A DNA stretch of 64,000 nt from positions 296 through 64,295 of the forward strand of contig NZ_JAJGWT010000007.1 of assembly GCF_021390715.1 (NCBI RefSeq). Direction: 5' to 3'. Shown here in pieces: positions 37,960 through 64,000 of the stretch (position 1 is the stretch's first letter; the number at the start of each line of letters is the position of its first letter). The position numbers and the translations under genes were made by a program. The notes below the pieces were generated by a model, which had not been told where the DNA came from, did no database searches, and was given only the letters and a program-made list of their open reading frames with translations. The stretch comes from Tenacibaculum piscium. GTDB taxonomy: Bacteria > Bacteroidota > Bacteroidia > Flavobacteriales > Flavobacteriaceae.

Positions 37960-38900
37960 AAGTCTATTTAAACTTCCGTGAACAAAGTAAAAACAAGATT
38001 TAGCACAAGCAAGATGCTTGCGCTAGCCAAGGATATTCTGATAAAAAACTATTTAAATTTCCTGTAAAAATTAGATATCGCTATCGCGAGCATCTTGCTC
38101 GTGAACAAAGTTAAAAACACAAGAAATAAAAACTGTTTTAGCACAAGCAAGATGCTTGCGCTAGCCAAGGATATTCTAAAAAAAATCTATTTAAATTTCC
38201 TGTAAAAATTAGATATCGCTATCGTGAGCATCTTGCTCGTGAACAAAATAAAAAACACAAGAAATAAAAAAACAGTTTTAGCACAAGCAAGATACTTTCG
38301 CTAGCAAAGGATATTCTAAGAGCCTGTTTAAATTTTATTTAAAAACATTTTATAGTTGAAAAATCGAATCCGTCAAACTGAATTTATTTCAGTTTCGCAT
38401 CCTGATTTGCCGTAGTTCTTCTCTTTATGCGATTCTGAAATAAATTCAGAATGACGAGAATTTGGTTTTTTATTTAATTTTTAAACAGGCTCTAATAAAA
38501 AACTATTTAAATTTCCTATAAAAATTAGATATCGCTATCGTGAGCATCTTGCTCGTGAACAAAATTAAAAACAAATAAAAAAACAGTTTTAGCACAAGCA
38601 AGATACTTTCGCTAGCAAAGGATATTCTAATAAAAGTCTATTTAAATTTCCTGTAAAAATTAGATATCGCTATCGCGAGCATCTTGCTCGTGAACAAAGT
38701 AAAACACAAGAAATAAAAAAACTATTTTAGCACAAGCAAGATGCTTGCGCTAGCCAAGGATATTCTAATAAAAGTCTATTTAAATTTCCTGTAAAAATTA
38801 TATATCGCTATCGCGAGCATCTTGCTCGTGAACAAAGTAAAACACAAGAAATAAAAACTGTTTTAGCACAAGCAAGATACTTTCGCTAGCCAAGGATTCT
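37958..38900 (+). repeat. Six-unit tandem array of paired hairpins
   Basis: A unit of about 130-140 bp is repeated near 37958 (short), 38041, 38177, 38496, 38631 and 38767. Consensus order: CTATTTAAATTTCCTGTAAA, a first hairpin GCGAGCATCTTGCTCG, an A-rich spacer with AACACAAGAAATAAAA, and a second hairpin GCAAGATGCTTGC, then GCTAGCCAAGGATATTCTAA. The two hairpins are inverted, diverged copies of each other. Some units have ACTTTCGC in place of GCTTGCGC. A mobile element interrupts the array at 38320-38492. No open frame of note. Confidence 0.85.
38320..38492. mobile_element. Complete 173-bp MITE-like element with TAA target duplication
   Basis: The ends are GAGCCTGTTTAAA and TTTAAACAGGCTC, perfect 13-bp inverted repeats. 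It is flanked by TAA (38317-38319 and 38493-38495). The uninterrupted junction in neighbouring array units reads GGATATTCTAATAAAA, exactly the flanks with one TAA. Inside, CTGAATTTATTTCAG and CTGAAATAAATTCAG are mutually complementary. No transposase. A 3-bp TNA duplication is used by some IS5-family groups; assignment to that family is inference. Confidence 0.85.
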
Positions 38901-47125: not shown

Positions 47126-48996
47126 TGAAAATGATAGTCAACATATTAAAAAAAATTAGTGTACTTTTTATTTTTCTAATTAGCGTAACATCAGTAGGGC
47201 AAATATTAGGGAATAATGGACAGAACTATAATTCTTTTAGTGCTCGAAACTTTATGAAATTTAACCGTTTTTTAACGGTGCCTACTTTTTCCGCTTTGCG
47301 AGAAAATAAAACGGCTTTAACAGGAATTGTGCGCAATAGTAATATCGATTTTGAAGATAATCCAAGATTGCATTTACTTTCCTATTCAGGGAAAATGCGT
47401 GAAAGCGTAGGAGCTGGTTTTGTAGTGTATCAACAAGAAGTTGGAGCAATGAAAGATTTTGGAGCAATCGCAAATTATGCACAAAAAATCCAATTAAATC
47501 AAAATATGGATTTAACTTTTGGATTTAATTTCTTATATAGTAGAAGTAGTATTGATTGGGCGAGAGTTCTTGTAAATGATCAGGATGATTTGTTTTTATC
47601 AAACTTTCAAGATATTCCTATGGTGATGTTACAACCTGCAGTAACACTATCTTTTGGTAGTTTTGATGTTGGTCTGTTCTTTGAAAATTTAGTCGATTTT
47701 AATTTGAAAAAAAGTGAAGTAGCGACCGATTTTGGTCAAAAAACCTTTTCGGCACACGCTATGTATTCTTATGAATTTAGCTATGCCGCAGGTATTTTTG
47801 AACGTGCCGATTTAAGAGCTTTAGTAGTCGCATCAAAAGCAGGTAAACAAGGATTTAATGGTTCAGGAAGTCTTATTTTAGACCTACCAAAAGCAGGTTG
47901 GATAAAAGCAGGATACGATAAAACATATGGAATATCCGCAGGTTTAGGTGTTAATATTTCTGATGAATTATCCATCGGTTTTAGTTACGAAAAAAATGAA
48001 TTTGCAGCAACCAATGAAGTTGGATTAACCTATAATTTTGGACAAAAAAATTATATCAGAAATAGACCAAAAAGAAGAACAGGTAACGTAAATGTAACAT
48101 TGCCAAAAAGAACACCTAAAAAAACGAAAAAGAAAACCGATTATAAAGATGAAGAACATCATGATTTATCAGATGAACTTCAACAGGCTCAAGATTCTAT
48201 TAATGTATTAAATGAAAAAGTAGATGAGGTGCTTCGAATTTTGAAAAATCAACCACCATTAATCAAACAAAAAATAGAAGAACCAAAAACATTTATACCC
48301 AAAGAAATCAAAGGAGATGAAAAAGATACTTCCTTAAAAAGAAGAAATAAAGCACCTTGGCGTGAAAGTACAATTACACATTCTGGAGGTGGAGGTACGA
48401 TGTATTACGTGGTTTCCGATAGATACAGAAATAAAGAAAATGTCGATGCTTTAATAGAAAAATGGAGTAGATTAGGCGCAGAAGCTAAATATATCTTCGA
48501 TCCTACCGATAAATGGTATTATGTGTATATTGACAGATATGCTAAAAAAGTAGATGCTATCGAAAAAGTAGACGATTTTAACGATAAAACACGTTTATTT
48601 GAAAGTAATGATAAAAATGATCAATCATCAATAAAATTAAATAGCGGAAAAGATCCGGTATATGTGGTTAAATTAACCATCGGTGAAGCAGGTGATTCGT
48701 ATAAAGAACCTAAAAAACAACCACCCGCTAGAGTAAGAACCATGTCGAACTCACAAGGAATTGAGCCAGGATATTATTTACAAGTATATGTAAATTCAAA
48801 AAAATCATTAGCCGATAGAAATGTTGATGAACTAAGAAATGATGATATCAAAGCAGGATATTTTATAAATCCGACCACAGGATATATGCATGTATATATC
48901 GCTAAAGTAGATAGCAAAGAAGAAGCTATTCGTTTGTATAACAATAATTTAAACGGCGCGTTTTACGATCGTAAAACCATAGTACGTATAAAATAA
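47125..48996 (+). CDS. PorP/SprF-family outer-membrane protein with SPOR-like C-terminus (SprD-like)
   Basis: This 623-residue protein has a signal peptide (to about SVGQ, residue 26) and a PorP/SprF barrel domain (about 30-305) opening NYNSFSARNFMKFNRFLTVPTFS (landmark) with repeated amphipathic strands and an ending AATNEVGLTYNFGQ. A Lys-rich linker and a coiled coil (DELQQAQDSINVLNEKVDEVLRIL, about 350-375) follow. The last 200 residues have two SPOR-like units, GTMYYVVSDRYRNKENVDAL and GYYLQVYVNSKKSLADRNVD. Barrel proteins of this family help export or hold T9SS adhesins; SPOR domains usually bind peptidoglycan. It lies 33 bp before sprB. Confidence 0.85.
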   Translation: MKMIVNILKKISVLFIFLISVTSVGQILGNNGQNYNSFSARNFMKFNRFLTVPTFSALRENKTALTGIVRNSNIDFEDNPRLHLLSYSGKMRESVGAGFVVYQQEVGAMKDFGAIANYAQKIQLNQNMDLTFGFNFLYSRSSIDWARVLVNDQDDLFLSNFQDIPMVMLQPAVTLSFGSFDVGLFFENLVDFNLKKSEVATDFGQKTFSAHAMYSYEFSYAAGIFERADLRALVVASKAGKQGFNGSGSLILDLPKAGWIKAGYDKTYGISAGLGVNISDELSIGFSYEKNEFAATNEVGLTYNFGQKNYIRNRPKRRTGNVNVTLPKRTPKKTKKKTDYKDEEHHDLSDELQQAQDSINVLNEKVDEVLRILKNQPPLIKQKIEEPKTFIPKEIKGDEKDTSLKRRNKAPWRESTITHSGGGGTMYYVVSDRYRNKENVDALIEKWSRLGAEAKYIFDPTDKWYYVYIDRYAKKVDAIEKVDDFNDKTRLFESNDKNDQSSIKLNSGKDPVYVVKLTIGEAGDSYKEPKKQPPARVRTMSNSQGIEPGYYLQVYVNSKKSLADRNVDELRNDDIKAGYFINPTTGYMHVYIAKVDSKEEAIRLYNNNLNGAFYDRKTIVRIK

Positions 48997-49029: not shown

Positions 49030-52000
49030 ATGATAAAAAAAATACTTTTATTAGCTAGTTTATTCTTTACACTAATTTCATTCTCGCAAAAAATAGATGC
49101 TTCATTAGAGCATTTAAGAGAAGGTGAGAGTGTAATGATGGAAAGAACAATGCCTTTGCCATTAGGGCAGAGACCTTCAGGTTTTACGCAAAGTGATATT
49201 GATAAAAGCTCAGCAGGTATGGATTTAACTTTGCGAGGTAATATGACTTTTATAGGGAATAATAACCTTAGTGTTGATGTTAAAAAAACTAGAGATTTTA
49301 GAGAGTTAAATAAAGCATTTGATTTATATCGCTATCCTTATATTTTGAATAATGGTAGTGTTTATACAGGAAATGAGACGCCAAATGACTCATATGATTT
49401 AGATTTGTATATATATCAAAATGGTAATATAAGACAAGATTTAGGTAATGGTTCTGCTTACATGGATTATGTTGATGTTGATGGTTCTGTTGATGAGAAT
49501 GGAGATGGAAAAGATGATACTTTTTCATCAAGCACATCTACTTTAAGTTTACCTAATTGTTCACGTGTAGCTTATGCAGGGTTGTATTGGGCAGGTGTAT
49601 ATCCAAGAGAACATTGGCTTACAACAACGAATCCCTTAAGGTCGGATGATTATGATAAGATAAAATTCAAATATCCTTCATCAACTACGTATAAAAATAT
49701 AACAGCTGATGAAACTATTTACAATAACAATGAGCCTTATATCTGTTTTAAAGATATAACGACTGAAGTACAAGCAGAAGTAAACCCTAACGGAGTCTAT
49801 ACAGCAGCAAATATTAGAGCTACTAGAGGAGTCGATCATTATAGAGGTTTAGGAGGTGCTTCTGGTTGGGTAATGATTGTAGTTTATGAAAATGATAATG
49901 AGTCAAGTAAGAAGTTTTCAGTTTTTGATGGATTTGCAGATATACATGGAGAAACAAAAGATGCTAGTGGTAATGTAATAACTCCAGCAAATGAAGCGGA
50001 AATAACTTTTTTGAATTTTAAAACCATACCAAAAGGACCTGTTAATGTAGAGTTAATAATGGCTGCCTTAGAAGGGGATAAAGCAATTCCAGGGGATAAT
50101 TATCAAATTAAAAATGCAGCAAACAATTATGTAAATGTATTTAACACTATTAGTCCTCAAGATAATTTTTTTAATGGGTCTATTAGTGTTTTTGATACTT
50201 ATTTAGCTGGCAGAAACCCAGCGAGTACCAATACCCTTGGTTTTGATATAGATCATATTAAAATAAATAACCCAAATAATAGTATTATAGGTAATAATGA
50301 AACATCTTTAGATGTTAAGTTTACTACAGGAGGAGATGTTTATTGGCCATTTTTAAATGCGATGTCTGTTGAGGTTGTAGAGCCTGAAATTAAATTAGTG
50401 AAAACAGCCGTAGATGCTACAAATACACCTATTACATCAGAAGTAGCCTTAGGAGGTGAGGTGTATTATAATATTACCTTTCAAAATATTGGTACTGATA
50501 ATGCGAAAAATACCGTAATCGTTGATGAGTTAAAAACAACAGTAGATTTTAAAGATATTCCTGGCAATATTGAAGTTTCTGATTCTCGTATAAGTTATAC
50601 CTACGAAGCATCAACAACTTTAAATGGAGGCGGTGGAAAATTAACCTTTACCGTACCCGATGATTTAGTTAAAATAAATGGTGCAGAATATACTATCAAA
50701 ATAAAAGTAAATGCAACTTCTGATTGTAGTAAATTAAGAGATGCTTGTTCGAATAAAGTAAAAAATCAGGCATTTGCTACTTATGAAAGAGATGAATCAA
50801 AGTTAAGTACTTCGAACCCTGGTTATGTTGATGGTTACAATGAATTAACAACAGCAAGTTATGCCGGTTTAGAACCTACGTGTAATTTAGGAGTTCAAGG
50901 AACAACAAATTTTGTAATAGATACAAGTAACTGTAAAGGTTCTATACAATTACTTTGTGGTGGCGATGTTGAACTAAGTGCAGGAGCAGGTTTTGACTCG
51001 TATGAGTGGATAAATATTGCAAAACCAGCAATAGTATTAGCTACAACTCAAAATTATAAAGCAATAGAAGCAGGAACTTATCAGGTAACGGCAATAGCAC
51101 CAAGTGGTTGTACCGATAGAATAGAAACTATAGAGGTAATAGGTGATAATTTAGCGACAAATCCTTTAGAACCTTTTGCTGATCAAATTTTAACAAGCTG
51201 TACAAGTAATACAGAAGAACTTGCTGAAATTTATTTATGTGGAACAGCTGATTTTAGAGAGATAATTTTACCTTTTGGGGCAAGTTTAGCAACGACCGTA
51301 AAATGGTTTAAATTAGATGAAAAAAAACCATGTGATCCAACCAAACCAACAGAATTACCAACAACAACAAGTAATTGTGCGAATATTGCAACAGGCTGTT
51401 CTTGGGATGAAATACGTACTAAAACAGGTAGAGAATTATCAAAGAAATTCGATAAAAAAGGACAATATAAATTAGAAGTTTTATACGATGGGCAATGTCC
51501 AAAAACGTATTATTTTAATGTGTTTTCTGGAGCTTTAAAACCTAAGTTTGATAAAAAAAATATTGTTTGTGGAGCTAATGGAAGTATTGTCGTAAATGGT
51601 GTGCCAGATCGTTATGAATATCAATTAACGTATCCTAGTGGAACTACTACGATTGGTTTTCAAGATAGTAATGAATTTAAGAATTTATCTGAAGTTGGTA
51701 ATTATGATATAACAATTAAATTAAAAGGATCAACACTTGCATCTTGTAGTTTTGATTATATAGTAAAAATAGATGAACAAGCACTAGGTTTAACAGTTGC
51801 CCCTGAATTTAATGCTGGCTGTGATGGAAAAGCAATAATAACAGCACAAGTAAACGGTACCTTACCAGGTAATTATATTTATACATTATTAAATAGTGTT
51901 GGTGGAGTTATTGAAACAAAGGCAGCAACTCCTGACAGAAGTGTGACTTTTGAGGTAACAAATGCAGGATTGTATAGTGTAAAGGTAGCAACTACTACGA

Positions 52001-55000
52001 CTACTTGTACAGAGACAGTAACAACCAGAGTTATTAAACCAACTCCGCTTACATTAACCGCAGTAGCAACTAAAAATATTACCTGTACTGCAGGTTCATC
52101 TGATGGAATAATAACTTTAGCAGGAGCTAATGGTGTACCAAATGCTACAGGCGACAAATATTCATACGCATTATTATCAATAAATGGAACAGCCGTTAGC
52201 CCAAAAACCTATTTTACAGATACAACATATAATGTGGTAAATGGTAAAGAAGGAATTTATGTTTTTGAAGTTATTGATAGTAATAATTGTACAGCAACTT
52301 CAACCGCTAAAATTAGTGTAGAAGCACCTTTACAATTTACACATAAAGAAACTCAAGTAAATTGTAATAAGAAAGGAACTATAACAGTTGATGTTACTAA
52401 AAATACGGGTTATAAATTAAAATATAGTATTGATAATAAAGTTACTTGGCAAAGTTCAAGTTTTTTCGATGGTTTAGATGTTACAACAGCAGCAACATTA
52501 TATACCGTTTATATTAGAGCAACTAAAGGAACATATCAATGTAATTATCAAATATCAGATATTGAAATTACAGAAGCAACAGGTTTAACTAATGGTTCAG
52601 CAGTTGCAACAGGTTTATCTTGTGGTACTCAAAATAATCCAGAAGGAAAAATTAAATTTACTGCACCAACAGGTGGAACAGCACCTTATACTTATTTTTA
52701 TAAACATTCTTTGGATACTAATTTTACATCAACAGGAAATACAAGTGTTAATGTATCTAAAACGGGAAAATATGAAGCAAAAGTAGAAGATGCAAATGGT
52801 TGTTCTTTAGATTTAATAATTAAAGATGAAATAACAGCGTTACCAACACCGCTAACTATAGAGCATGAAATATTAATTTGTGGTAATACAGCAACAGTTA
52901 TTATAACACCAAAAGATCCTTCTTATACCTATAGTATTGATGGTACAAATTTTCAAGCTAGTAATGTATTTAAAAATGTAGCTCAAAATTGGTATAAATT
53001 TAGCATAAAATATGGTAAATCGTGTACTGTAGAAAGTCAGTATGTATCTCTTTATGGGCAACCATTTACTGGGCGTTTTATCAGTAAAACAGACAGTGAT
53101 TGTTCTGGTTCTGATAATGGAACAATAACTATTAATGCGAGTAATATTCAAGGAGGAAGTTATGAATATTCTACTGATGGTGGAACTACTTGGGAAGAAA
53201 CAGGAGATAATCCGTATAGAATCGTAGGATTAGAGGCAAAAGAACATCATTTAAAGATTAGAGAAGTAATAGGAACAGCACCTAATGTGATTAGTTGTGA
53301 AAAAGATTTAGGAAAATATACCATAGGCGAGCCTGATAAATTAGAGTTAATAGAACCTAAAATTACAACAGATGCAACTTGTACAACAGGAGCAACAATT
53401 ACTGTAGAAGCAAAAGGAGGAAATCCACCTTATAAATTTAGTATTGATGGTGGTGCTTCTTGGGAACCTGAAAATGGAATATATGCAAGTGATAAATATA
53501 AATTTACTAATGTAAAAGCTGGTGATTACCAAGTAATGTTATTGGATAGCAAAAAATGTGATGAATGTGGTTGTACCGATAATCCTTTTGAAAATGGAAG
53601 TTTTGAAAATCATTATTATGCAAATTCATCATCAGCGGGTTATTTAACAACTCGTGAAGAAAATATTCCAGGTTGGGATACGACAGAACCTAAAAGGAAT
53701 GAAATAGAAATTTGGTATAATGGTTTTCAAGGTGTAAAAGCTTTTGATGGCGATGATTTTGCGGAATTAAATGCCAATGAAGTAGGTTCTTTATATCAAG
53801 AATTTTGTACAAAACCAGGGGATAAAATTACTTGGTCGGTAGCTCATAGAGGTAGAAGTGGTACTGATGTTGCTACGGTAAAAATAGGAAAAAGTCTTGC
53901 TACTGCCGATATTAAAAAAACAATGTCTGATGGTAATACTGCTTGGGGAGAATATTCAGGAACTTATACGGTACCAGTAGGACAAACAACAACGGTAATT
54001 GCTTTTGAAGCTGTATCTTCAGTAGGAGGTGCAAGTTATGGTAACTTTATTGATGGCGTAAAAATAGAAATTAACAGGAAAACTTGTGTTCTTAAAGATA
54101 TTGAGGTAAAAGCACCAGCAGGTGTAACACATAGTGCAGAAGTTACAAATAGTTGTTATGATAATTCAAAAAATCCAGAAATAAAAATTACAGCATTAAC
54201 AGGAATTGCACCGTATCAATTTAGTATTGATGGTGGAACGACTTGGGAAACTCCAACAGATGTAAATGATACAGAATTTATATTTAACAATACAAACGGA
54301 TTAATTTTACCAACAACTACCGCTAAAGATTATACCATACAAATAAAAGATGGTGGCGGTTGTGAATCGCCAGTTAGTAAAGTTACTATTAATCCGAAGG
54401 TGAAAATAACAACAGCAAAAACACCTAAAAACTGTAAAGATGATGCAACAATTACAATAACAGCATCAGGCGGAGTTGGGAATTATGTATATGAAATAAA
54501 CCCAAGTGCAGGAACAACAATTGCAGGAAATAAAATAACAGTTACAAATGCCGATATTTCTTACACCGTAAAAGTTAAAGATAATAACGGAAATACCGAA
54601 TTTTGTACAGCAGAAGAAATTGTAAAAATTACTGAAATTAAAAAACCTGTAATAACAAATATAACTGCAACAGAATTAGATTGTACAGTAAATACAAAAG
54701 CGAGTATTTCTTTTGAAGTATCCGAAGGAAAAGCACCGTTTAAATATACCGTAAATGGTGGAACATCAAAACCAATAACAGGAAATACACATACAATTTC
54801 TGGTTTAGATGCAGGAACTTATAAAATTATTGTAACCGATGCGAATGGTTGTAAATCTTTAGAGAAAATTCAAAAAATTAAAAAATTAGTTGCTTTAACT
54901 GGTGGTTCGGCAGTGGGGACGGATTTAGGTTGTAGTGGAGATATTGATGCTATAAAAAATTATGATGGAACTGGTTTTATTTGGAGTTTACCAGGTATTT

Positions 55001-58000
55001 GGAGTTCAGGAGCAATCACTTTTACTGAACCAACAACAGGTACAGCACCTTATACCTATTATTATAAAAAAGATGGAGATACTGATTTTACACTAGTACA
55101 AGGAGATTCAGTTTCTGGTTTGCCTTTAGGTTATAACCCAAAAGATACTACCTATAACACCAAAGTAGTAGATGCAAAAGGTTGTAGTATTCCTTTAGAT
55201 GATGTTACTATAAAAGTGCCTGAAGATACAGGAAATAACAATCATACATATACACATAATTGTGATGGAAGTGTTGATGTAGTCCTTCAACCTTATGACC
55301 CTACTTATATTTATATAGTTGACGGAAAACCTGCTCAATCAGGGAATAATGTTTTTGAAAAAATACGAAGTAATAATCTTTATTATATGATATTTTCACA
55401 AGAAGGTTGTTTACTTTATATGAGTCTAACTTGGGATGGCGTTTTTTTTGAAAATAAACTTCTCCAAGCAAAAATAGTTGAACAGAATAATGTACCTGTA
55501 CCTGTATGTGCAGGAGGAAAAGGAAGCGTAAAAGTAGAAGCTTTTACTAAAAATGGTTCTACAGAAGTTCCATACCAACCAAATTTTGAATACTCATTAG
55601 ATGACGGAGCAACTTGGGCGGAATCTGTTGGAAATCCTTATACAATTACAGGTCTTAGTATAGGAGATAATACAATAAAAATAAGAAAAAGAAAAGAAGA
55701 TTTAGCCGTAGGAGAAGAACATTGTAATAATATAGAATTAAAGAAAACCGTAGTTGAAATACCTGTTATAGAAATAGAAGCAACAGCTACACCAATTGGT
55801 TGTTTAACATTAACAAGTACTATTACGCCAAAAGTGAAAAATAGTAGTTATTTTAAATATTTAGATTATGAATTATTAGATAGTTTAGGAAATTCATTTA
55901 CACCTAAAAAAATAGCAGAGCATAGGGATAGTACTAAGCCTAATTTTACAAATATACCCGTAGGGAAATATAAAATGGTAGCTAAGTGGTTAGGAAATAG
56001 TTATGAAAGTTTCCTTTTAGGTTGTAAGTCAGCACCAATAGATGTAGAAGTTGAAGCACCAAAAGACATTAAATTTACCGCAACACCATCAGTTTGTCAT
56101 AAAGGAAGTGATGCAACAATTACCGTAGATGTTACAGAAGGAAATGGGAATTATAGGTATGTTCAATATAATAAGAATGGTATAAAACCTCCAACACAAC
56201 AGCAAACCTCCAATGTGTTTACAGGATTATCAGCAGGAACACATACTATTACTGTTTTTGATGGTAAGGGTTGTTCAAAAACAATAGAAGATATTGTAAT
56301 TAACCCACAATTAAAAGTATCAGCAACAACAACACAAGCAAGTTGTAAAGATGGAACTTTAACAATTACAGCATCAGGCGGAAAAGATACAAATTATGTA
56401 TATGCCGTTGTAGCAAAAGATGCAACAGCTCCAACAGTTTTTAGCGCAACAAAACCAACCGAAATTAAAGAAGGAACTTGGGATATTTATGTAAGAGATA
56501 ATGGAGGAACAGGAACTTTAGGAACGGATTATTGTCAAGCAAAATTGACTACGAATGAAGTAACTAAAATACCAAACCCGACAATAGATACTGTAACGGC
56601 TATACAACCTAAATGTTTTGGTGAAAAAGGAACAATAAATGTAACAGTTTCAGGAGGAACAACAGATTATACAGTAACTTTAACAGGTTTATTGGGAACA
56701 ACATCAGTGCAACCACAAACAGGAAATTCATTAAACTATGAATTTAAAGATTTAGTTGCAGATACTTATACAATTAAAGTTGTAGATGCCAATACTTGTG
56801 AATCCGCAGAAAAAACACAAGAAATTAAAGTTCCATCAGCATTAAAAGATGGTAAAGCTATAGCTACTGATTTAGCTTGTGGCGTATCAGGAGGAAGTAT
56901 TACGTTTACAAATCCTACGGGAGGAACACCAGACCCAACAACAGGAAATTATACTTTTTATTATAAAGAAAACATTGCTTCTGTTACAAATTATACACCA
57001 GTTTTAGGAAATAATACAAATACGGTTACAGTAACAAATTTATCGGCAGGAGATTATTTAACGAAAGTAGTCGATTATGAAGGTTGTTCTTTAGATTTAA
57101 ACACAGTTACAAATCCAATTACAATAAAACCATTACCAACTGTACCAATTTTTGACCCTACAACAATTACCTATAACTGTGATGGAACAGCAACTATTCA
57201 AGTAACACCAACACCAGCATATAATTATATGCTAGATAAAGATAAAACAACGACTAATAATACAGGAGTATTTACAGCTGTAACACCAGGTTCTCACACG
57301 GTTTCTGTAGATTATGGAAGTAATTGTTCTACGGATATTATTGTTGAGGTTAAAGCAAATCAGGGATTTACGGCAATCATAACAGGGGAAACAAATCCTG
57401 TGTGTAAAGGTGCCGCAAACGGTAAAATTGAAGTAACGGCTTCTTTTCCATCAGTAACACCAACATCTTTTGAATATTCTACGGATGGAACAACTTGGAT
57501 TACTGTAAATTCAAATAAAGTTACAATTGATGGATTTAATGCAGGAACTCCTGATATTACTCACACGATAAATGTTCGTCCAACAGGAAAAACATCGCCA
57601 TCAGCTTGTGATGTTACTTTAACTAAAATATTAACAAACCCAACGGAAGTAAAAGTTACAAAAGCACCGCATACAAAAATTACGTGTACTTCAACAACAA
57701 GTACGATAACACCAACAGCAAGTGGCGGAAATGGTGGAACTTATACTTATACTGTTGAATCTTTGGATAATTTAGGAAATTCATTAAGTCCTAAAGTTAT
57801 AAGCTCAACTCTTACAGGTTTATCCGCAGGAAAATATAATGTTGTAGCAAAAGATAAATTAGGATGTCCATCAGAAGCTCTTGAAGTTGTTATTGCTGAT
57901 AAAGAAGATGTTGAATTTACAGCAACAGCATCAGCTTGTCATACAGGAAGTGATGCGTCAATTAAAGTTACAAATATTACAGGAAATGACACGAATTTTA

Positions 58001-61000
58001 CTTTTAGTATAAATGATGGAGTAACAACAAAAACACAATCATCAAATGAATTTAAAAATTTATCCGCAGGAGATTATAAAATAACAGTTTTTGATGGTTT
58101 TGGTTGTAAATTAGAAAAAGATGTTACAATTAAAGAAAAAATTACAGCAACAGTAACTCAAATAGATGAAACTTGTACTAAAGGAAGTTTAACAATATCA
58201 AATGCAAAAGGCGGAAGCGGTTCGGGTTATGTTTATGCCGTTGTAAAAGATGGAAATACACTTGGTGCTTTCACTCTAATAACAAATCCAATAACAAAAA
58301 TTGAAAATTTAGATGCAGGAAAATATCATATTTATGTAAGAGATAATAACGGAACAGGAACTTTAGGAACTGATTATTGTGAATATCCAGAAACAAAAGA
58401 AATAACTAAAATTGCAGAATTAAAAGCAACAGCAAAAACGCCAATACAACCAAAATGTAATGGTAAAACTGGTAGTGTTGTTTTTGAAATATCAGGAGGA
58501 AAAACGCCTACTTATGTTTTAAAGAAAGGAACAACTGTAATAAATTTAGTATCACCAATATCAGTAAATATAACAGGAAATACACATACAATTTCTGGTT
58601 TAGCTGATGGAAATTATACAATTACTGTAAAAGATGAAAATAATTGTTCTAAAACTATAACTCAAATAATTGAAGCTCCAGATAAATTAACTGGCGGTTC
58701 AGCAACACCGATAGATTTTACTTGTAAAACACTAAAAGGAGGAATTGATTTTGTGAATCCTAACGGAGGAACAGGCGTTTATACTTTTTCTTATAAATTA
58801 GACACAGCACCTGTTACAGATTTTCAACCAGTTGTAGGAAATCAGCAGTTAGGTCTAGATGCAGGAACTTATAATATTAAAGTAAAAGATGCTAATAATT
58901 GTGAAATATCTTTAAACGATGTTACAATTAATCCAGAACCAATAGCACCAACATTAACAAAATCGGTAGCTTATAATTGTGATGGAAAAGGAACGATTAC
59001 AGTAACAGCAACGCCATCGGCAGTATTGCCAATAATATATACGTATAGTTTAGACGGAGCAACGCCACAAACAGGAGCTAATCCAAATGTTTTTGCTGAT
59101 TTAGATGCAGGTTCTTATACGGTATCTGTAGGTTATGGAAGTGATTGTTTTACAGATATTGATGTAATTGTAGCGGTAAATCAAGAATTTACGGCAAGCA
59201 TAACAGGGCAAACAAATCCTGTGTGTAAAGATAAAACGAACGGTAAAATTGAAGTAACGGCTTCTTTTCCATCAGTAACACCAACATCTTTTGAATATTC
59301 TACGGATAATGGAACAAATTGGAATACAGCAACTATAAACCCATTTATAATTGATGGATTTAATGGAGGAACTCACACAATAAAAGTTCGCCCAACAGGA
59401 GAAACATCAACAGCTTGTGATGTTACTTTAACTAAAACATTATCAAACCCAACAGCGGTAGTTGTAAGTCTATTAACAAAAGTAACTAAAGAAATTACTT
59501 GTGATCCAGCAACAGGTGCTACCATAACATTATTCGCGGGTGGTGGAAACGGAACTCCTTATACTTTTGAATTGTTTGATGGAGCTACTTTAAAAGAAAC
59601 GACATTAGCAGGTGTAAATACATTTACTGATGTTGCAGTCGGAAATTATACGATTAAAGCAAAAGATTCAGCAGGTTGTAAATCAGATGCTTTCCCGATA
59701 GAAGTTAAAGCTAAAAAAGACATCGAATTTACATTAAAACCACAATATTGTTATGATGCAACTATCGGAAACGGAACTATCATTGTTGAAATAACTAATG
59801 GAAATGGCAATTATCAAATTAAAACAAATACAGGTACTTGGCAAAATTTAACGCCAACATCAACTACGCCTTTACAATACACACTTACAGGTTTATCGCC
59901 AAAAGAACATACAATTACAGTAAGAGATAAATCGAATTGTGAAGTAGAAAAAAAGGTAACTATTTATCCTGAATTATCGGCTAAGGCAACACCAACAAAT
60001 ATTAGTTGTAACGATGGTAAAATTACAATTACAGCAAAAGGCGGTGATGGAAATTATCAATATACGGTAACATCAGCAACAACGACAGATATTGTAAGTA
60101 ATACTAATGAAATAACAATAACAAAGCCAGAAACTTATACGGTTACTGTAAAAGATAAAAATGGCGGTACAAATGCGTGTTCAGTTTTTTTATCAATACC
60201 TATAAAAAATATAACGCCTGTTGCAATTACAACAACAGCAAATCAACCACAATGTAACGGAAATAAAGGAAGTATTGATGGTAAAATTACTGCAAATACT
60301 GGGCAAGCTCCTTTTACAATTACATTAAAAGATAATTTAAATGCTGTAATAGAAACTTTAACCAATCACACGTTACCAGAATTTAGTTTTAATAATATTC
60401 CTGCGGGAACAGGTTACAAAGTAGAAATTACAGATAATCTTACTTGTACAGATATTAAAACATTTGATTTAATAGAATTACCATCAATAGTTCTTAATAT
60501 TGAACCTGTCTTACCAGATAATTGTACTACAGATATAGCAAATACAGGTTTTGACTTTAATTTTGGAAGTTTAACTTTAGCTGATTACGCTCCTTATACT
60601 TTACAATACACTTTAGATGGAGATAACGGTACAGGTTGGACAAATATGAATACGCTTACGTCTTCATTAAGTGTAGCACCACATCCAACACCTGGAGATA
60701 ATTTATATAGTATAAGAAATTTAGCCCCAGGTTCACAACATACACCAGCAATTAGAATTTTAAATGCAGATGCTACTGTACGTTGTGAATTAAAAAACGG
60801 TGTTTTTGTGATGCCTTATAGTGTAAATGGTGTAAAAATAGATATTCAAGTGGTTGCGGGTGATTGTACAACAGGATATACTATAACAGTTGAAGCAATT
60901 GATGGAGTTGGTCCTTTTGAGTTCTCTTTAACGCCAGACCCTATTTATCCATCAACACTTCCAGGTGATTTAACTTGGTATGATGCTGAAGACACTACTT

Positions 61001-64000
61001 TATCACCAACTAATACAAATGCCCCTGGTTCTAATTATAGAAGAAAAATATTTACAAATATAATTCCAGAAGTCGAGTATGATTTTTATGTAAGAGATAA
61101 AAGTACTAGTTGTATTGCTGAAGCAAAAGATCAGGCAATGACTCCTGCATCAGATTTTGATGTTGCTATAACACCAATAGTTACAAGTCAATCATGTCCT
61201 GGAATTACTAATAACGGTGAATTATCATTTAAAATAGAAGATACTGATGGCGTTTTAAATGGTAAAGAATTAAATTGGCAATTATATGATGGTCTTAATG
61301 ATATTCCTTTAACAGGAATAAATGGTACAATATCAAATACACAAGGATATCCTTTTACATTAAATACAGTATTAGCACCAGAGCCTTTATTACAAGGGTT
61401 GTCATCTGGTTTATATTTTATTGTTATTGAAGATGCAAATAACGGTACAGCTCCTAATGTTTGTAAGTGGGGAAGTAAAGATGTCCAAATATTTAAAGGA
61501 ACTCCTTTTGTTGGTAACTTAAATAAACTAAAAGATATTACCTGTGCTTCACCTGGTCAAATCAGAATTGATGGCGTAACAGGAGGTTTTGGAGATTATA
61601 CTTATACCGTTACAGGAATTACAAATTCAACACAAGTAACGCCAATAACAATTCCAACAGGAAAAAGTACTTTTGATGTTACTTATGCCGATGTAACAGA
61701 TAAATCTTTAGATGTTGAAGTTACTATTTTAGTTACTGATAAAAATCAATGTTCTTTTGAATTACCTAAAGTAACCTTAAAAGTAAGCGAAAACCCAACA
61801 ATTAATTCTGTAACGGTAAATAGTTGTGGAGCTGTAAATTCTATTGATATTAATACAACAGGCGGATTAGCTCCTTATCAATATTCATTAGATGGAATTA
61901 ATTTTCAAGCACCAGTAAGCACAGCAGACCATACAATGAATGTTGTTGATGGAAATCAAACATTAACAGTAAAAGACGCAAACGGTTGTATTGCTACTGC
62001 TACATTTAATGTTCATCCTGATATTACTTTTGATATTGATAACATAACAGTACCAGATTGTAATACTATCAATAATTCAGCGGATAATGCAACAGCAACG
62101 ATAACCGTAAATACAGGTTCAGGAGATTATCAATATAGTTTAGATGGTGTTTTACCGGCTGTAGATATTACAGGAACTACGGTTACTTTTCCTACAACTT
62201 TAACACCAGGGAATCATACTATTAAAATTATTGATAAACTGAATATTGCTTGTACATTAGAGAAAACATTTACAGTATCAGAACCGATAAAACCTAGTTT
62301 TAAAGCGAATATCACAAAAAATAACAGTTGTAATGGAGCTAATGGCGGGGAAATAACGGTAACAAGTACTGAAGCTTTAACATATACTATAAATCCAGCA
62401 GTAGTAGGAAGTTTTGATAATATAACAAATATATTCTCAGCTTTACCACCAAATACCTACACTGTAACAGGAACAGGAACTAACGGTTGTACAACTGAAA
62501 TTAAAGATATAATAATAACAGAATTTAAAGCAATAAAAGTACCTACACCAACAGTAGCAAATGGAGGTATAACAGAGTTTGCGTGTACAACAGGAAACAC
62601 AAGAAACAGTGCAATTGTAAAAGTTGATAAAACAGCCATAACAGAAGGAAGTGGAACTTATACAAAAGCAGAATTTGTATTTACGCCAAACGGTGGAGGA
62701 GCAGTAGTAACACCACCCGCTTCATCAAACTTTGAATTTACTACGGATAATGTTTTAGGTGGAACAGTTGATATTACTGTTTATGATGACCAAGGGTGTA
62801 AAGGAAAAACATCAGCAACAATAGCTGCTTTTACACCGATTGCAGATTTATTAGCAATACCAAAAACAGCAATCACTTGTTCAACAAATGAAAGTATTGA
62901 AGTAACATTTACAGGAATTGCAACGGAAATTAAAGTCGTAGATGCTAATGGAATTAATTATGATTCAACGCCAGCAACAGCAACAGCAACAGCATCAGTA
63001 TTTACAAATTTACCAGTAGGAAAATACACGATAACTATTAAAAATGATAAAGGTTGTGAATTAACTACTTATCATACAGTAACGGCAATTCCTGCTTATA
63101 CTATTCTTCTTTCAGATAAAATAGATACATCTTGTATAAATTCAAGTACAGGAAGTATTAAGTTTGATGTTAAAGATTATGTAGGGAATTATGATTATAC
63201 AATAACAGGAGCTACATTAGGAACTGCAATTACAGGAACAGGAACAGGGACAATACCAGCAGGAACACCAAAAGAAATTACAGGTTTAAAAGCTGGAGAT
63301 TATACTGTTAATATAACAACAGGAACTATAAACTGTACAGTTACTCCAATAGATTTTAAAATTGAAGATGCTCCAGCAGTTTTAAGTGTAGAAGCAGAAG
63401 AAACATCAGCAGTACAATGTAAAGATGATGCAAATGCAACAATTACTGTAACCGAAACAAAAGGCGGTTGGGGTCGTTATGAATATCAATTAGAAGATGC
63501 TTCGGGAATAGTTTTAGGTTATGATTTCACAACAAATACAACGAATAAAATATTTACAGGTTTATCTCATGGAACTTATAAAGTTAGCGTAAGAGATGCT
63601 TTAGGTTGTATTGTTCCTTCTAATGATATAATAATTACAAACCCAACAGAAGTTAAGTTTACAGTAACCAAAGATGATACGGTTTGTGATGTAAATATCG
63701 CAGGAAGTATTACTGTTGATTTAAAAGATGCAGTATCAGGATTAGCAGGCGGAAAAGCTCCTTATACTTATACTTTAACAGATGATGCCTCAACGCCAAA
63801 TGTAAAAACAGTAACTATAACCGATACAGAATACACATTTACAGGTTTATCAAAAGCAAATTATACGGTAAGCGTAAAAGATGCGAATTTATGTAAAGGA
63901 ACAGGTGCGGATATAAAAATCTTTGATGATATTGTATTTACATTAGAAGAAACAAAGAAAATTGATTGTTCAGTATCGACTGACGCAGTTTACAATATAA
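49030..64000 (+). CDS. sprB: Giant gliding adhesin, SprB-like, 3' end beyond the window
   Basis: The reading frame is open for at least 4,990 codons from ATG at 49030; sampled rows across the gene remain in one frame. Expected total for this family is over 6,000 residues, so roughly a quarter is missing. Order: signal peptide MIKKILLLASLFFTLISFSQ; a unique N-terminal domain (about 25-450); a DUF11-like repeat (about 450-590, IKLVKTAVDATNTPITSEVA); an Ig-like segment with CGGDVELSAGAGFDSYEW; then Cys-containing SprB repeats of about 87 residues from residue 918. It is very rich in Thr, Asn, Gly and Lys. It should be secreted by T9SS, move along the cell surface and drive gliding. Gene name by family resemblance and synteny. 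Confidence 0.9.
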   Translation, partial: MIKKILLLASLFFTLISFSQKIDASLEHLREGESVMMERTMPLPLGQRPSGFTQSDIDKSSAGMDLTLRGNMTFIGNNNLSVDVKKTRDFRELNKAFDLYRYPYILNNGSVYTGNETPNDSYDLDLYIYQNGNIRQDLGNGSAYMDYVDVDGSVDENGDGKDDTFSSSTSTLSLPNCSRVAYAGLYWAGVYPREHWLTTTNPLRSDDYDKIKFKYPSSTTYKNITADETIYNNNEPYICFKDITTEVQAEVNPNGVYTAANIRATRGVDHYRGLGGASGWVMIVVYENDNESSKKFSVFDGFADIHGETKDASGNVITPANEAEITFLNFKTIPKGPVNVELIMAALEGDKAIPGDNYQIKNAANNYVNVFNTISPQDNFFNGSISVFDTYLAGRNPASTNTLGFDIDHIKINNPNNSIIGNNETSLDVKFTTGGDVYWPFLNAMSVEVVEPEIKLVKTAVDATNTPITSEVALGGEVYYNITFQNIGTDNAKNTVIVDELKTTVDFKDIPGNIEVSDSRISYTYEASTTLNGGGGKLTFTVPDDLVKINGAEYTIKIKVNATSDCSKLRDACSNKVKNQAFATYERDESKLSTSNPGYVDGYNELTTASYAGLEPTCNLGVQGTTNFVIDTSNCKGSIQLLCGGDVELSAGAGFDSYEWINIAKPAIVLATTQNYKAIEAGTYQVTAIAPSGCTDRIETIEVIGDNLATNPLEPFADQILTSCTSNTEELAEIYLCGTADFREIILPFGASLATTVKWFKLDEKKPCDPTKPTELPTTTSNCANIATGCSWDEIRTKTGRELSKKFDKKGQYKLEVLYDGQCPKTYYFNVFSGALKPKFDKKNIVCGANGSIVVNGVPDRYEYQLTYPSGTTTIGFQDSNEFKNLSEVGNYDITIKLKGSTLASCSFDYIVKIDEQALGLTVAPEFNAGCDGKAIITAQVNGTLPGNYIYTLLNSVGGVIETKAATPDRSVTFEVTNAGLYSVKVATTTTTCTETVTTRVIKPTPLTLTAVATKNITCTAGSSDGIITLAGANGVPNATGDKYSYALLSINGTAVSPKTYFTDTTYNVVNGKEGIYVFEVIDSNNCTATSTAKISVEAPLQFTHKETQVNCNKKGTITVDVTKNTGYKLKYSIDNKVTWQSSSFFDGLDVTTAATLYTVYIRATKGTYQCNYQISDIEITEATGLTNGSAVATGLSCGTQNNPEGKIKFTAPTGGTAPYTYFYKHSLDTNFTSTGNTSVNVSKTGKYEAKVEDANGCSLDLIIKDEITALPTPLTIEHEILICGNTATVIITPKDPSYTYSIDGTNFQASNVFKNVAQNWYKFSIKYGKSCTVESQYVSLYGQPFTGRFISKTDSDCSGSDNGTITINASNIQGGSYEYSTDGGTTWEETGDNPYRIVGLEAKEHHLKIREVIGTAPNVISCEKDLGKYTIGEPDKLELIEPKITTDATCTTGATITVEAKGGNPPYKFSIDGGASWEPENGIYASDKYKFTNVKAGDYQVMLLDSKKCDECGCTDNPFENGSFENHYYANSSSAGYLTTREENIPGWDTTEPKRNEIEIWYNGFQGVKAFDGDDFAELNANEVGSLYQEFCTKPGDKITWSVAHRGRSGTDVATVKIGKSLATADIKKTMSDGNTAWGEYSGTYTVPVGQTTTVIAFEAVSSVGGASYGNFIDGVKIEINRKTCVLKDIEVKAPAGVTHSAEVTNSCYDNSKNPEIKITALTGIAPYQFSIDGGTTWETPTDVNDTEFIFNNTNGLILPTTTAKDYTIQIKDGGGCESPVSKVTINPKVKITTAKTPKNCKDDATITITASGGVGNYVYEINPSAGTTIAGNKITVTNADISYTVKVKDNNGNTEFCTAEEIVKITEIKKPVITNITATELDCTVNTKASISFEVSEGKAPFKYTVNGGTSKPITGNTHTISGLDAGTYKIIVTDANGCKSLEKIQKIKKLVALTGGSAVGTDLGCSGDIDAIKNYDGTGFIWSLPGIWSSGAITFTEPTTGTAPYTYYYKKDGDTDFTLVQGDSVSGLPLGYNPKDTTYNTKVVDAKGCSIPLDDVTIKVPEDTGNNNHTYTHNCDGSVDVVLQPYDPTYIYIVDGKPAQSGNNVFEKIRSNNLYYMIFSQEGCLLYMSLTWDGVFFENKLLQAKIVEQNNVPVPVCAGGKGSVKVEAFTKNGSTEVPYQPNFEYSLDDGATWAESVGNPYTITGLSIGDNTIKIRKRKEDLAVGEEHCNNIELKKTVVEIPVIEIEATATPIGCLTLTSTITPKVKNSSYFKYLDYELLDSLGNSFTPKKIAEHRDSTKPNFTNIPVGKYKMVAKWLGNSYESFLLGCKSAPIDVEVEAPKDIKFTATPSVCHKGSDATITVDVTEGNGNYRYVQYNKNGIKPPTQQQTSNVFTGLSAGTHTITVFDGKGCSKTIEDIVINPQLKVSATTTQASCKDGTLTITASGGKDTNYVYAVVAKDATAPTVFSATKPTEIKEGTWDIYVRDNGGTGTLGTDYCQAKLTTNEVTKIPNPTIDTVTAIQPKCFGEKGTINVTVSGGTTDYTVTLTGLLGTTSVQPQTGNSLNYEFKDLVADTYTIKVVDANTCESAEKTQEIKVPSALKDGKAIATDLACGVSGGSITFTNPTGGTPDPTTGNYTFYYKENIASVTNYTPVLGNNTNTVTVTNLSAGDYLTKVVDYEGCSLDLNTVTNPITIKPLPTVPIFDPTTITYNCDGTATIQVTPTPAYNYMLDKDKTTTNNTGVFTAVTPGSHTVSVDYGSNCSTDIIVEVKANQGFTAIITGETNPVCKGAANGKIEVTASFPSVTPTSFEYSTDGTTWITVNSNKVTIDGFNAGTPDITHTINVRPTGKTSPSACDVTLTKILTNPTEVKVTKAPHTKITCTSTTSTITPTASGGNGGTYTYTVESLDNLGNSLSPKVISSTLTGLSAGKYNVVAKDKLGCPSEALEVVIADKEDVEFTATASACHTGSDASIKVTNITGNDTNFTFSINDGVTTKTQSSNEFKNLSAGDYKITVFDGFGCKLEKDVTIKEKITATVTQIDETCTKGSLTISNAKGGSGSGYVYAVVKDGNTLGAFTLITNPITKIENLDAGKYHIYVRDNNGTGTLGTDYCEYPETKEITKIAELKATAKTPIQPKCNGKTGSVVFEISGGKTPTYVLKKGTTVINLVSPISVNITGNTHTISGLADGNYTITVKDENNCSKTITQIIEAPDKLTGGSATPIDFTCKTLKGGIDFVNPNGGTGVYTFSYKLDTAPVTDFQPVVGNQQLGLDAGTYNIKVKDANNCEISLNDVTINPEPIAPTLTKSVAYNCDGKGTITVTATPSAVLPIIYTYSLDGATPQTGANPNVFADLDAGSYTVSVGYGSDCFTDIDVIVAVNQEFTASITGQTNPVCKDKTNGKIEVTASFPSVTPTSFEYSTDNGTNWNTATINPFIIDGFNGGTHTIKVRPTGETSTACDVTLTKTLSNPTAVVVSLLTKVTKEITCDPATGATITLFAGGGNGTPYTFELFDGATLKETTLAGVNTFTDVAVGNYTIKAKDSAGCKSDAFPIEVKAKKDIEFTLKPQYCYDATIGNGTIIVEITNGNGNYQIKTNTGTWQNLTPTSTTPLQYTLTGLSPKEHTITVRDKSNCEVEKKVTIYPELSAKATPTNISCNDGKITITAKGGDGNYQYTVTSATTTDIVSNTNEITITKPETYTVTVKDKNGGTNACSVFLSIPIKNITPVAITTTANQPQCNGNKGSIDGKITANTGQAPFTITLKDNLNAVIETLTNHTLPEFSFNNIPAGTGYKVEITDNLTCTDIKTFDLIELPSIVLNIEPVLPDNCTTDIANTGFDFNFGSLTLADYAPYTLQYTLDGDNGTGWTNMNTLTSSLSVAPHPTPGDNLYSIRNLAPGSQHTPAIRILNADATVRCELKNGVFVMPYSVNGVKIDIQVVAGDCTTGYTITVEAIDGVGPFEFSLTPDPIYPSTLPGDLTWYDAEDTTLSPTNTNAPGSNYRRKIFTNIIPEVEYDFYVRDKSTSCIAEAKDQAMTPASDFDVAITPIVTSQSCPGITNNGELSFKIEDTDGVLNGKELNWQLYDGLNDIPLTGINGTISNTQGYPFTLNTVLAPEPLLQGLSSGLYFIVIEDANNGTAPNVCKWGSKDVQIFKGTPFVGNLNKLKDITCASPGQIRIDGVTGGFGDYTYTVTGITNSTQVTPITIPTGKSTFDVTYADVTDKSLDVEVTILVTDKNQCSFELPKVTLKVSENPTINSVTVNSCGAVNSIDINTTGGLAPYQYSLDGINFQAPVSTADHTMNVVDGNQTLTVKDANGCIATATFNVHPDITFDIDNITVPDCNTINNSADNATATITVNTGSGDYQYSLDGVLPAVDITGTTVTFPTTLTPGNHTIKIIDKLNIACTLEKTFTVSEPIKPSFKANITKNNSCNGANGGEITVTSTEALTYTINPAVVGSFDNITNIFSALPPNTYTVTGTGTNGCTTEIKDIIITEFKAIKVPTPTVANGGITEFACTTGNTRNSAIVKVDKTAITEGSGTYTKAEFVFTPNGGGAVVTPPASSNFEFTTDNVLGGTVDITVYDDQGCKGKTSATIAAFTPIADLLAIPKTAITCSTNESIEVTFTGIATEIKVVDANGINYDSTPATATATASVFTNLPVGKYTITIKNDKGCELTTYHTVTAIPAYTILLSDKIDTSCINSSTGSIKFDVKDYVGNYDYTITGATLGTAITGTGTGTIPAGTPKEITGLKAGDYTVNITTGTINCTVTPIDFKIEDAPAVLSVEAEETSAVQCKDDANATITVTETKGGWGRYEYQLEDASGIVLGYDFTTNTTNKIFTGLSHGTYKVSVRDALGCIVPSNDIIITNPTEVKFTVTKDDTVCDVNIAGSITVDLKDAVSGLAGGKAPYTYTLTDDASTPNVKTVTITDTEYTFTGLSKANYTVSVKDANLCKGTGADIKIFDDIVFTLEETKKIDCSVSTDAVYNI
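51781..53580 (+). repeat. sprB super-repeat 1 (seven modules)
   Basis: Residues 918-1517. Module anchors in order: NAGCDG, NITCTAG, QVNCNK, GLSCGTQ, LICGNT, DSDCSG, DATCTTG. Each module starts with one Cys and ends with another before an acidic strand (for example SNNCTA, ANGCSL). This super-repeat is followed directly by the inserted domain. Confidence 0.75.
53581..54120 (+). other. Jelly-roll-like domain inserted between sprB super-repeats 1 and 2
   Basis: Residues 1518-1697 do not follow the SprB module pattern. They read NPFENGSFEN, then NIPGWDTTEPKRNEIEIW, GVKAFDGDDFAELNANE, LYQEFCTKPGDKITWSVAHR and NFIDGVKIEI, the pattern of beta-sandwich carbohydrate-binding-like domains found in other flavobacterial surface proteins. 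Probably a ligand-binding head within the fibre; ligand unknown. Confidence 0.7.
54121..56064 (+). repeat. sprB super-repeat 2
   Basis: Residues 1698-2345. Anchors: TNSCYD, KNCKDD, ELDCTV, DLGCSG, THNCDG, VPVCAG, PIGCLT. It is 1,944 bp long, longer than the others because of extra residues in the GLGCSG/IWSLPGIWSSG module and in the last module. Confidence 0.75.
56065..57906 (+). repeat. sprB super-repeat 3
   Basis: Residues 2346-2959, 1,842 bp. Anchors: PSVCHK, QASCKD, QPKCFG, DLACGV, TYNCDG, NPVCKG, KITCTS. It shares 69 identical nucleotides with super-repeat 4 in module 6. Confidence 0.8.
57907..59718 (+). repeat. sprB super-repeat 4
   Basis: Residues 2960-3563, 1,812 bp. Anchors: ASACHT, DETCTK, QPKCNG, DFTCKT, AYNCDG, NPVCKD, EITCDP. 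Very close to super-repeat 3 in modules 1, 2, 3, 5 and 6. Confidence 0.8.
59719..60480 (+). repeat. sprB super-repeat 5, first three modules only
   Basis: Residues 3564 onward. Modules 1-3 continue the order (PQYCYD, NISCND, QPQCNG), then the pattern stops at IELPSIVLNIEPVLPDNC. After 60481 single diverged SprB modules continue to the window end, without the seven-module order being recognisable. Confidence 0.7.

Follow-up and report, generated by a model that had tools for sequence, protein, structure and literature searches.

According to passages of two papers (PMC13104615, PMC4094633), the gliding adhesin SprB of Flavobacterium johnsoniae has about 6500 amino acids (aa) and a filament length of about 150 nm. 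The SprB of Tenacibaculum maritimum is MARIT_1321, whose repeat structure goes unmentioned in the corresponding passages (PMC5561996). Super-repeats of seven modules are reported for nebulin and the D-zone of titin, and of eleven modules for the titin C-zone, in passages of PMC7109182 and PMC7427331. Here we analyze a stretch of 64,000 nucleotides (nt) from Tenacibaculum piscium (hereafter the window; contig NZ_JAJGWT010000007.1), in which an open reading frame (ORF) starting at 49030 on the forward strand stays open up to the window end, and runs on in the same contig to a stop at C7:72043, giving a protein of 7572 aa in total. With F. johnsoniae SprB it shares PF13573 repeats, a type B signal of the type IX secretion system (T9SS) and neighbouring PorP/SprF genes, with GldJ and SprA encoded in the genome. 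Judging from these sequence features, the gene product is a giant SprB-type adhesin, for which a role in gliding is predicted. We report that two seven-module arrays flank a constant six-module middle segment of this protein and keep matched lengths, and we consider it somewhat probable that they do so as the two arms of a folded-back hairpin.

When modules were delimited by paired Cys residues, the repeat region was found to comprise 69 modules, mostly of 75-115 aa each. It follows an N-terminal head (49030-51534, forward strand, as set by the module boundaries), which consists of the protein start and non-repeat domains. After four further modules (modules 0-3; 51535-52581, forward strand) comes array A (modules 4-31; 52582-60486), which consists of exactly four blocks of seven modules in the order d-e-f-g-a-b-c. 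Block 1 (52582-54891) carries an inserted domain after module g, and is followed by block 2 (54892-56838), block 3 (56839-58686) and block 4 (58687-60486), all on the forward strand. The first-pass annotation of this DNA had described seven module types in a fixed order that recur four times, followed by three modules of a fifth set, and the first part of this description agrees with our scores. In modules 1-31, the mean module-to-module score was 97.8 at lag 7 versus 23.5-35.8 at non-multiples of seven (lags up to 20). In modules 4-31, the lag-7 score was 108.0, compared with a maximum of 72.1 over 20000 permuted module orders, and 27 of the 28 modules of array A had their best partner at a multiple of seven. 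The incomplete fifth set has to be given up, however: modules 1-3 (51784-52581) score only 21, 37 and 22 to the modules seven later, where the median over all pairs is 28, and they are no copies of types a, b and c and lie outside array A. The copies within array A are old, with a lag-7 identity that averages 41%. A blastp self-comparison of the adhesin gave no repeats, probably because the full self-match hides the rest.

Array A is followed by the middle segment (M1-M6, modules 32-37; 60487-62292, forward strand), which we propose below as an apex; M1-M3 are 110-116 aa long, and module 37 resembles type N of the next array. This array, array B (modules 38-63), also has period seven, with types H, I, J, K, L, M and N that are distinct from those of array A. 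It starts at about 62293 on the forward strand and continues past the window end at 63999, with roughly its first block inside the window. For each of its 26 modules, the best-scoring partner lies a multiple of seven away. Since the types of the two arrays are out of phase with each other, array B is no simple copy of array A. The long-range period of about 600 residues put forward earlier is therefore present, in two arrays. When the 14 position classes were mapped on a module tree with 55 tips, 18 changes sufficed (13 would be the minimum; after shuffling, the mean was 44 and the lowest value 39), which bears out the earlier expectation that modules group by position; this holds cleanly for eight of the 14 classes, each of which forms one side of a branch, whereas the other six are scattered, and most forks are poorly resolved.

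Relatives of the head occur in 63 of 166 genomes of the genus group, which includes Polaribacter (G012 matches P0082), and in 252 of 397 genomes of the family. We fetched the window's own gene and the genes from 36 other genus-group genomes, and decoded the own gene and 35 others with 14 module profiles, leaving out G034, which is cut by a contig end. Four chains were cut or aberrant (G155, G079, G116 and G180). The other 32 share one plan, namely a head, a few modules, array A, the middle, array B and a tail. The block number (1, 2, 3, 4 or 5) was equal in both arrays in 31 of these 32 chains, the exception being G026, where a stretch of unknown bases within array A makes the count unreliable. 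Two of the cut or aberrant chains, G155 and G079, have a five-block array A and then an early end inside array B.

Because counting by profile type would risk circularity, we also counted in a repeat-blind way. Three landmark profiles were placed, on the four modules before array A, on the middle and on the tail start, and the modules between them were counted whatever their type. An automatic period finder was dropped in favour of these landmarks, as it merged both arrays in many proteins and detected none in many with old copies. The middle segment comprised six modules in all 83 proteins counted, which come from the genus group and from elsewhere in the family, and in all 100 of a later database set. 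With A and B denoting the numbers of modules counted, B = A - 2, where the constant difference of two is a consequence of the landmark positions, held in 76 of the 79 informative proteins among the 83. Not counted as informative were G155, G116, G079 and G237, which end before the tail; the aberrant G180 had been removed earlier, and G559 was retained though its fetched stretch ends within the tail. The (A,B) pairs in this set were (7,5), (14,12), (17,15), (21,19), (28,26) and (35,33). The exceptions were G026 (14,20; assembly gap), G566 (14,5) and G543 (21,10), the last of which lacks two B modules and has, in addition, a fresh identical block in A.

The same rule was found in further sets. 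In another genome set, 17 of 19 proteins were counted (G094b and G457b are without landmarks) and all 17 fit: (4,2) was seen in 12/12 proteins of about 2740 aa, and five further proteins also followed B = A - 2. In a database set of 120, which holds many strains of one species, all 91 complete proteins with all landmarks fit, with (10,8) as a new pair; 29 were put aside as incomplete or weak, and 11 of these 29 did not show B = A - 2. The later database set, for which completeness was no requirement, gave 98 of 100 (out of 102, two being dropped for weak tails), and its exceptions were P0194, which is the same gene as G566 (14,5), and P0221 (14,19). Fourteen proteins of the 120-set and five of the later set are genes of the genome sets. 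With each gene counted once, B = A - 2 holds in 264 of 268 distinct proteins, and among later-set proteins outside the genome-derived genes, which were not used to build the profiles, it holds in 94 of 95. The proteins counted from the genome sets span about 40 genus groups. Over all sets, array A has 4, 7, 10, 14, 17, 21, 28 or 35 modules, so that the rule holds also for steps other than seven, as in (4,2), (10,8) and (17,15). The module counts of A and B are in lockstep. The period may, as suggested earlier, set a spacing for ligands or motor contacts; what the comparison shows is that the lengths of the arrays are bound to one another. Thus, a quantitative rule that covers 4 to 35 modules per arm replaces what would have been the curiosity of a single sequence.

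The tail after array B behaves differently, in that its length is independent of arm length and it grows mostly in threes. Its length is 7, 10, 13 or 16 modules among the genome-derived proteins, G559 excepted; of the 100 later-set proteins, 95 have tails of 7 + 3k modules, with k a whole number. Four of the other five lack the C-terminal end; the fifth, P0189, with a tail of 32 modules, has it. In nearly all chains that reach the C-terminus, the tail comprises 7, 10, 13, 16, 19, 22, 28, 34 or 49 modules.

We then compared the counts with trees of the heads, from which G027 and G091, which have broken heads, were left out. On a FastTree tree of 94 heads, A needed 33 changes and B 33, and the difference A-B only three; on an IQ-TREE tree of 41 heads, there were 12 changes in A and 10 in B inside the genus group (three unknown B left out). 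When B was simulated as independent at a like rate, it matched A in 24-27 of the 94 tips on average, and in at most 44, compared with 91 of 94 observed, and the simulations gave at least 42 changes of A-B. The lockstep is not a matter of shared descent. Since the head tree is perhaps disturbed by exchange of gene parts, close pairs matter, and two of them, G021/G101 and G016/G088, differ by one block in both arms. In G088 (3,3 blocks), array A carries a near-identical new copy that spans 1764 nt (99.83%) and array B one of 1894 nt (100%), and a search of its sister G016 (2,2) turned up no tract of this kind. The corresponding tracts of G021 (3,3) measure 1481 nt (99.73%) in array A and 476 nt (99.58%) in array B, and none was seen in its sister G101 (2,2). 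Block copies have similar ages in the two arrays, as the mean identity among copies in A correlates with that among copies in B, with a rho of 0.90 (59 proteins, among which related proteins are not independent). The earlier proposal that duplication of a whole block is the main growth step is in keeping with these near-identical seven-module tracts and with array lengths mostly in sevens, but it does not cover all growth, as arms also differ by three modules (4, 7, 10; 14, 17) and the tail, too, grows in such steps.

Unequal crossing over is expected to change one array at a time, and two crossovers between shifted sister copies would yield A+1 and B-1. The changes observed are A+1 together with B+1. 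Given this departure from what crossover would produce, selection for equal arms seems the simplest cause, and equal arms would be required most simply if the chain reversed direction in the middle and its arms lay side by side. We therefore propose, with about even confidence, that the adhesins of this family are self-paired hairpins, in which a single chain ascends, reverses at an exchangeable apex of six modules and descends, with the arms zipped antiparallel at a pairing period of seven modules, and that they lengthen only by equal additions to both arms. Unequal recombination inside one array would add blocks, the longer arm would then be left unpaired, and the gene would survive mainly if the other array gained or lost an equal number of modules. 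The seven-module period would correspond to the interval at which lateral pairing between the arms recurs. The tail, which grows mostly in threes without a change in array A, would remain unpaired and form a stalk connecting the hairpin with the cell surface through the C-terminal signal and an SprF protein.

This proposal predicts mirror symmetry between the arms. In 13 proteins with at least three blocks and a copy more than 90% identical, mirroring about M2-M3 brings the copy-age profiles of the arms into correlation, with a positive value in 13/13. G559 is telling here because its fresh copies sit far from the middle in both arms. The mean r in these 13 proteins was 0.57 for the antiparallel arrangement and 0.44 for the parallel one with one shift. 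An offset-free comparison favoured antiparallel in 15 of 22 proteins (p 0.019, without kinship correction), and the version with one parameter, given below, is fairer. Module similarity between proteins also co-varies on the anti-diagonal, with a peak at M2 to M2.5, which differs from the middle of the chain, in the sets with n = 1, 2 and 3 blocks (31, 70 and 21 proteins, with at most 70 taken for n = 2 and near-identical chains left out). Best partners lay within one module of the mirror position for 10 of 19 modules at n = 2 (permuted mean 2.3, highest 9) and for 9 of 26 at n = 3 (permuted mean 2.5, highest 9). Our best estimate of the mirror point is M2 to M3, and antiparallel pairing of the arms is hinted at by these sequence comparisons.

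The middle segment itself was strongly diverged, as if exchanged, over M1-M4 in four of 14 hand-picked close pairs. The clearest is G016/G088, where identity is 34-43% over M1-M4 and 96-100% over the tail and the modules ahead of A; the others are the window's own protein and G017 (31-44%), G342/G249 (37-56%) and G308/G296 (25-38%). Such an exchange of M1-M4 would suit an exposed tip.

Several observations weigh against the hairpin. In models with one parameter (one shift), antiparallel beats parallel in only seven of the 13 proteins, and parallel is better in the other six. The mirror co-variation is broad, with no one-to-one match of modules. It is weak at n = 1 (0.14 versus 0.09 off-register, with 3/12 partners close to the mirror position). 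At n = 4, where one species contributes many of the 54 proteins, there is no signal about M2 (0.05 versus 0.04; 4/33), and the weak best centres lie between M0 and M2. The middle was unexchanged in the other 10 of the 14 close pairs, and array modules, too, diverge in some pairs. Proteins with unequal arms exist, namely G566/P0194 (L153), G543 (L185) and P0221, as does P0057 (28,33), the only one of the 11 misfits set aside above with a good tail landmark, which lacks its C-terminus. An AlphaFold2 model of modules abc, M1-M6 and HIJK gave good modules, predicted as Fn3/Ig-like sandwiches, but a predicted template modelling score (pTM) of 0.39, so that their arrangement was left unresolved. Finally, the domain inserted after module g of block 1 (about 175 aa; 53575-54099, forward strand) is predicted to be a carbohydrate-binding-like beta-sandwich, and from its place near the N-terminal end of array A, the hairpin would put it near the base and a simple rod near the tip, which favours an N-terminus far from the cell and tells somewhat against the hairpin.

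The evidence on this domain is a model with a mean local confidence (pLDDT) of 69 and a pTM of 0.70, whose top Foldseek matches were a porphyran-binding carbohydrate-binding module (CBM), CBM4, CBM16 and CBM61; such fold lists give top matches, and the absence of a family from them carries no weight. A Pfam search of the domain gave no match, and a choice_anch_C match was weak and below the cut-off. The domain looks like a CBM, and sugar binding is predicted.

A different shape, which we regard as unlikely, is an oligomeric rod, in which several chains would run once from surface to tip, period seven would reflect the winding of the bundle, and A and B would be two stretches of one rod. Foldseek of the array model gave as best match GhpA of the Aureispira grappling hook (E 3.7e-22), which is reported, in passages of PMC13319060, as a heptamer whose chain spans the filament. 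A winding repeat would account for period seven in both arrays, and the description of the structurally nearest large fibre as a filament-spanning heptamer also speaks against a folded-back chain. However, the template modelling (TM) scores are low, at 0.16 and 0.20 for the best GhpA match and no higher than 0.40 when a short fragment is scored by target length, no match between the adhesin and GhpA was found by sequence comparison, and a rod gives no reason for equal changes in A and B, including those in steps other than seven.

The arms may also be matched without any pairing, for example if the head docks on the tail and closes a loop, so that the middle is held at a fixed fraction of the fibre and the arms need not touch. 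All count data would fit such a loop equally well, and the n = 4 set, too, has co-variation near the base (0.61 between B26 and the module just before A). We hold it to be quite improbable, as small mismatches should be harmless to a flexible loop, and 264 of the 268 proteins keep the difference to the exact module. Very improbable, in our judgement, is a mutational coupling by which recombination amplifies both arrays together without selection on shape. The like age of the copies in A and B, which are fresh in the same genes, would be expected from it. On the other hand, a single unequal crossover alters one array and a double one between shifted sisters gives opposite changes; a single event by which both arrays would gain a block, given the order A-middle-B, is not known to us, and a fresh copy in one arm only exists in G543. 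That the lockstep is an artefact of module counting or assembly has a negligible probability, because the unknown bases in array A of G026 and the several draft genomes that give only short frames of the gene stand against landmarks and module calls that make no use of repeats, many genomes in single contigs, the fit of 94 of 95 proteins outside the genome sets, and all landmark counts.

If the hairpin is right, it would serve as a structural model for SprB-type gliding adhesins, locate their variable tip and explain how giant fibres change in length. Should it prove wrong, there must be another link between these two separate arrays of a single gene, which would be equally interesting. G566, G543 and P0221 are natural test cases. 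As to size, with about 4 nm per Ig or Fn domain, as given in passages of PMC7427331, some 71 modules would by arithmetic measure about 280 nm as a rod and about half of this as a hairpin.

The surroundings of the gene are those of an SprB-type locus. The adhesin gene (49030-63999, continuing past the window, forward strand) contains PF13573 SprB repeats and encodes a CHU_C/TIGR04131 T9SS type B C-terminal signal. PF13573 has 19 matches in the genome, 10 of them above the cut-off and every one within the adhesin ORF, and two parts of the adhesin gave E-values of 3.6e-48 and 2.8e-52; the C-terminus matches TIGR04131 at 90.1 bits (cut-off 35), as well as CHU_C. Directly upstream lies a gene for a PorP/SprF family membrane protein (47125-48996, forward strand), and just downstream of the adhesin, outside the window, a second SprF-like gene (L018:7922-8881); they score 122.8 and 170.7 bits, respectively, for PorP/SprF (cut-off 90.55). 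The upstream protein has an extra C-terminal SPOR domain, and the SprF-like gene on the other side is plain. The gene before that for the PorP/SprF-SPOR protein encodes an Ig_7/CHU_C protein with a T9SS type B signal (44915-47125, forward strand). GldJ, the only gld product searched for, was found at 818.4 bits (cut-off 458.2), and SprA at 2415.6 bits (cut-off 200).

Among the matches listed, the nearest named relatives are proteins of T. dicentrarchi, T. piscium and T. finnmarkense, and two listed homologues, in T. piscium and T. dicentrarchi, carry the name 'Putative adhesin precursor SprB'. A second protein class shares the head at 38-40% identity (e.g. G094:C1:1721475 and G088:C1:535778), and in one of its members, G094b (5003 aa), the module profiles match nothing. 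Elsewhere in the window, at 37989-38897, there are two intergenic arrays of a 138-bp unit, with 2.4 and 3.0 copies and pieces that look by eye like inverted repeats. A 36-bp stretch of contig C14 (L007) resembles array B DNA at 86% identity, probably by chance.

With regard to SprB of F. johnsoniae itself, neither search had a protein bearing that species name among its 120 listed matches, many of which are nameless. Decoded Flavobacterium relatives include P0121 from F. alkalisoli (arms 7,5; tail 34) and P0122 from F. beibuense (arms 7,5; tail 49), which have short arms and a long tail. We had considered the 150 nm filament as support for a hairpin of half length, and set it aside because F. 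johnsoniae SprB is undecoded and these relatives are long-tailed. No SprB super-repeats, two arrays or matched lengths are described in the titles, abstract openings and some passages of the SprB literature, a range that subscription papers mostly fall outside. GhpA, which is a T9SS substrate, resembles the adhesin as a giant bacterial fibre protein with beta-sandwich modules. Titin and nebulin resemble it in having several module types in a fixed order, repeated as a block. They differ in that they run along an external filament, for which titin is a proposed ruler, whereas the adhesin, which is bacterial and predicted to be secreted, has two arrays in one chain that are matched to each other. 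Seven-module super-repeats are known from nebulin and titin, and the twin-arm plan appears to be new for SprB-type adhesins.

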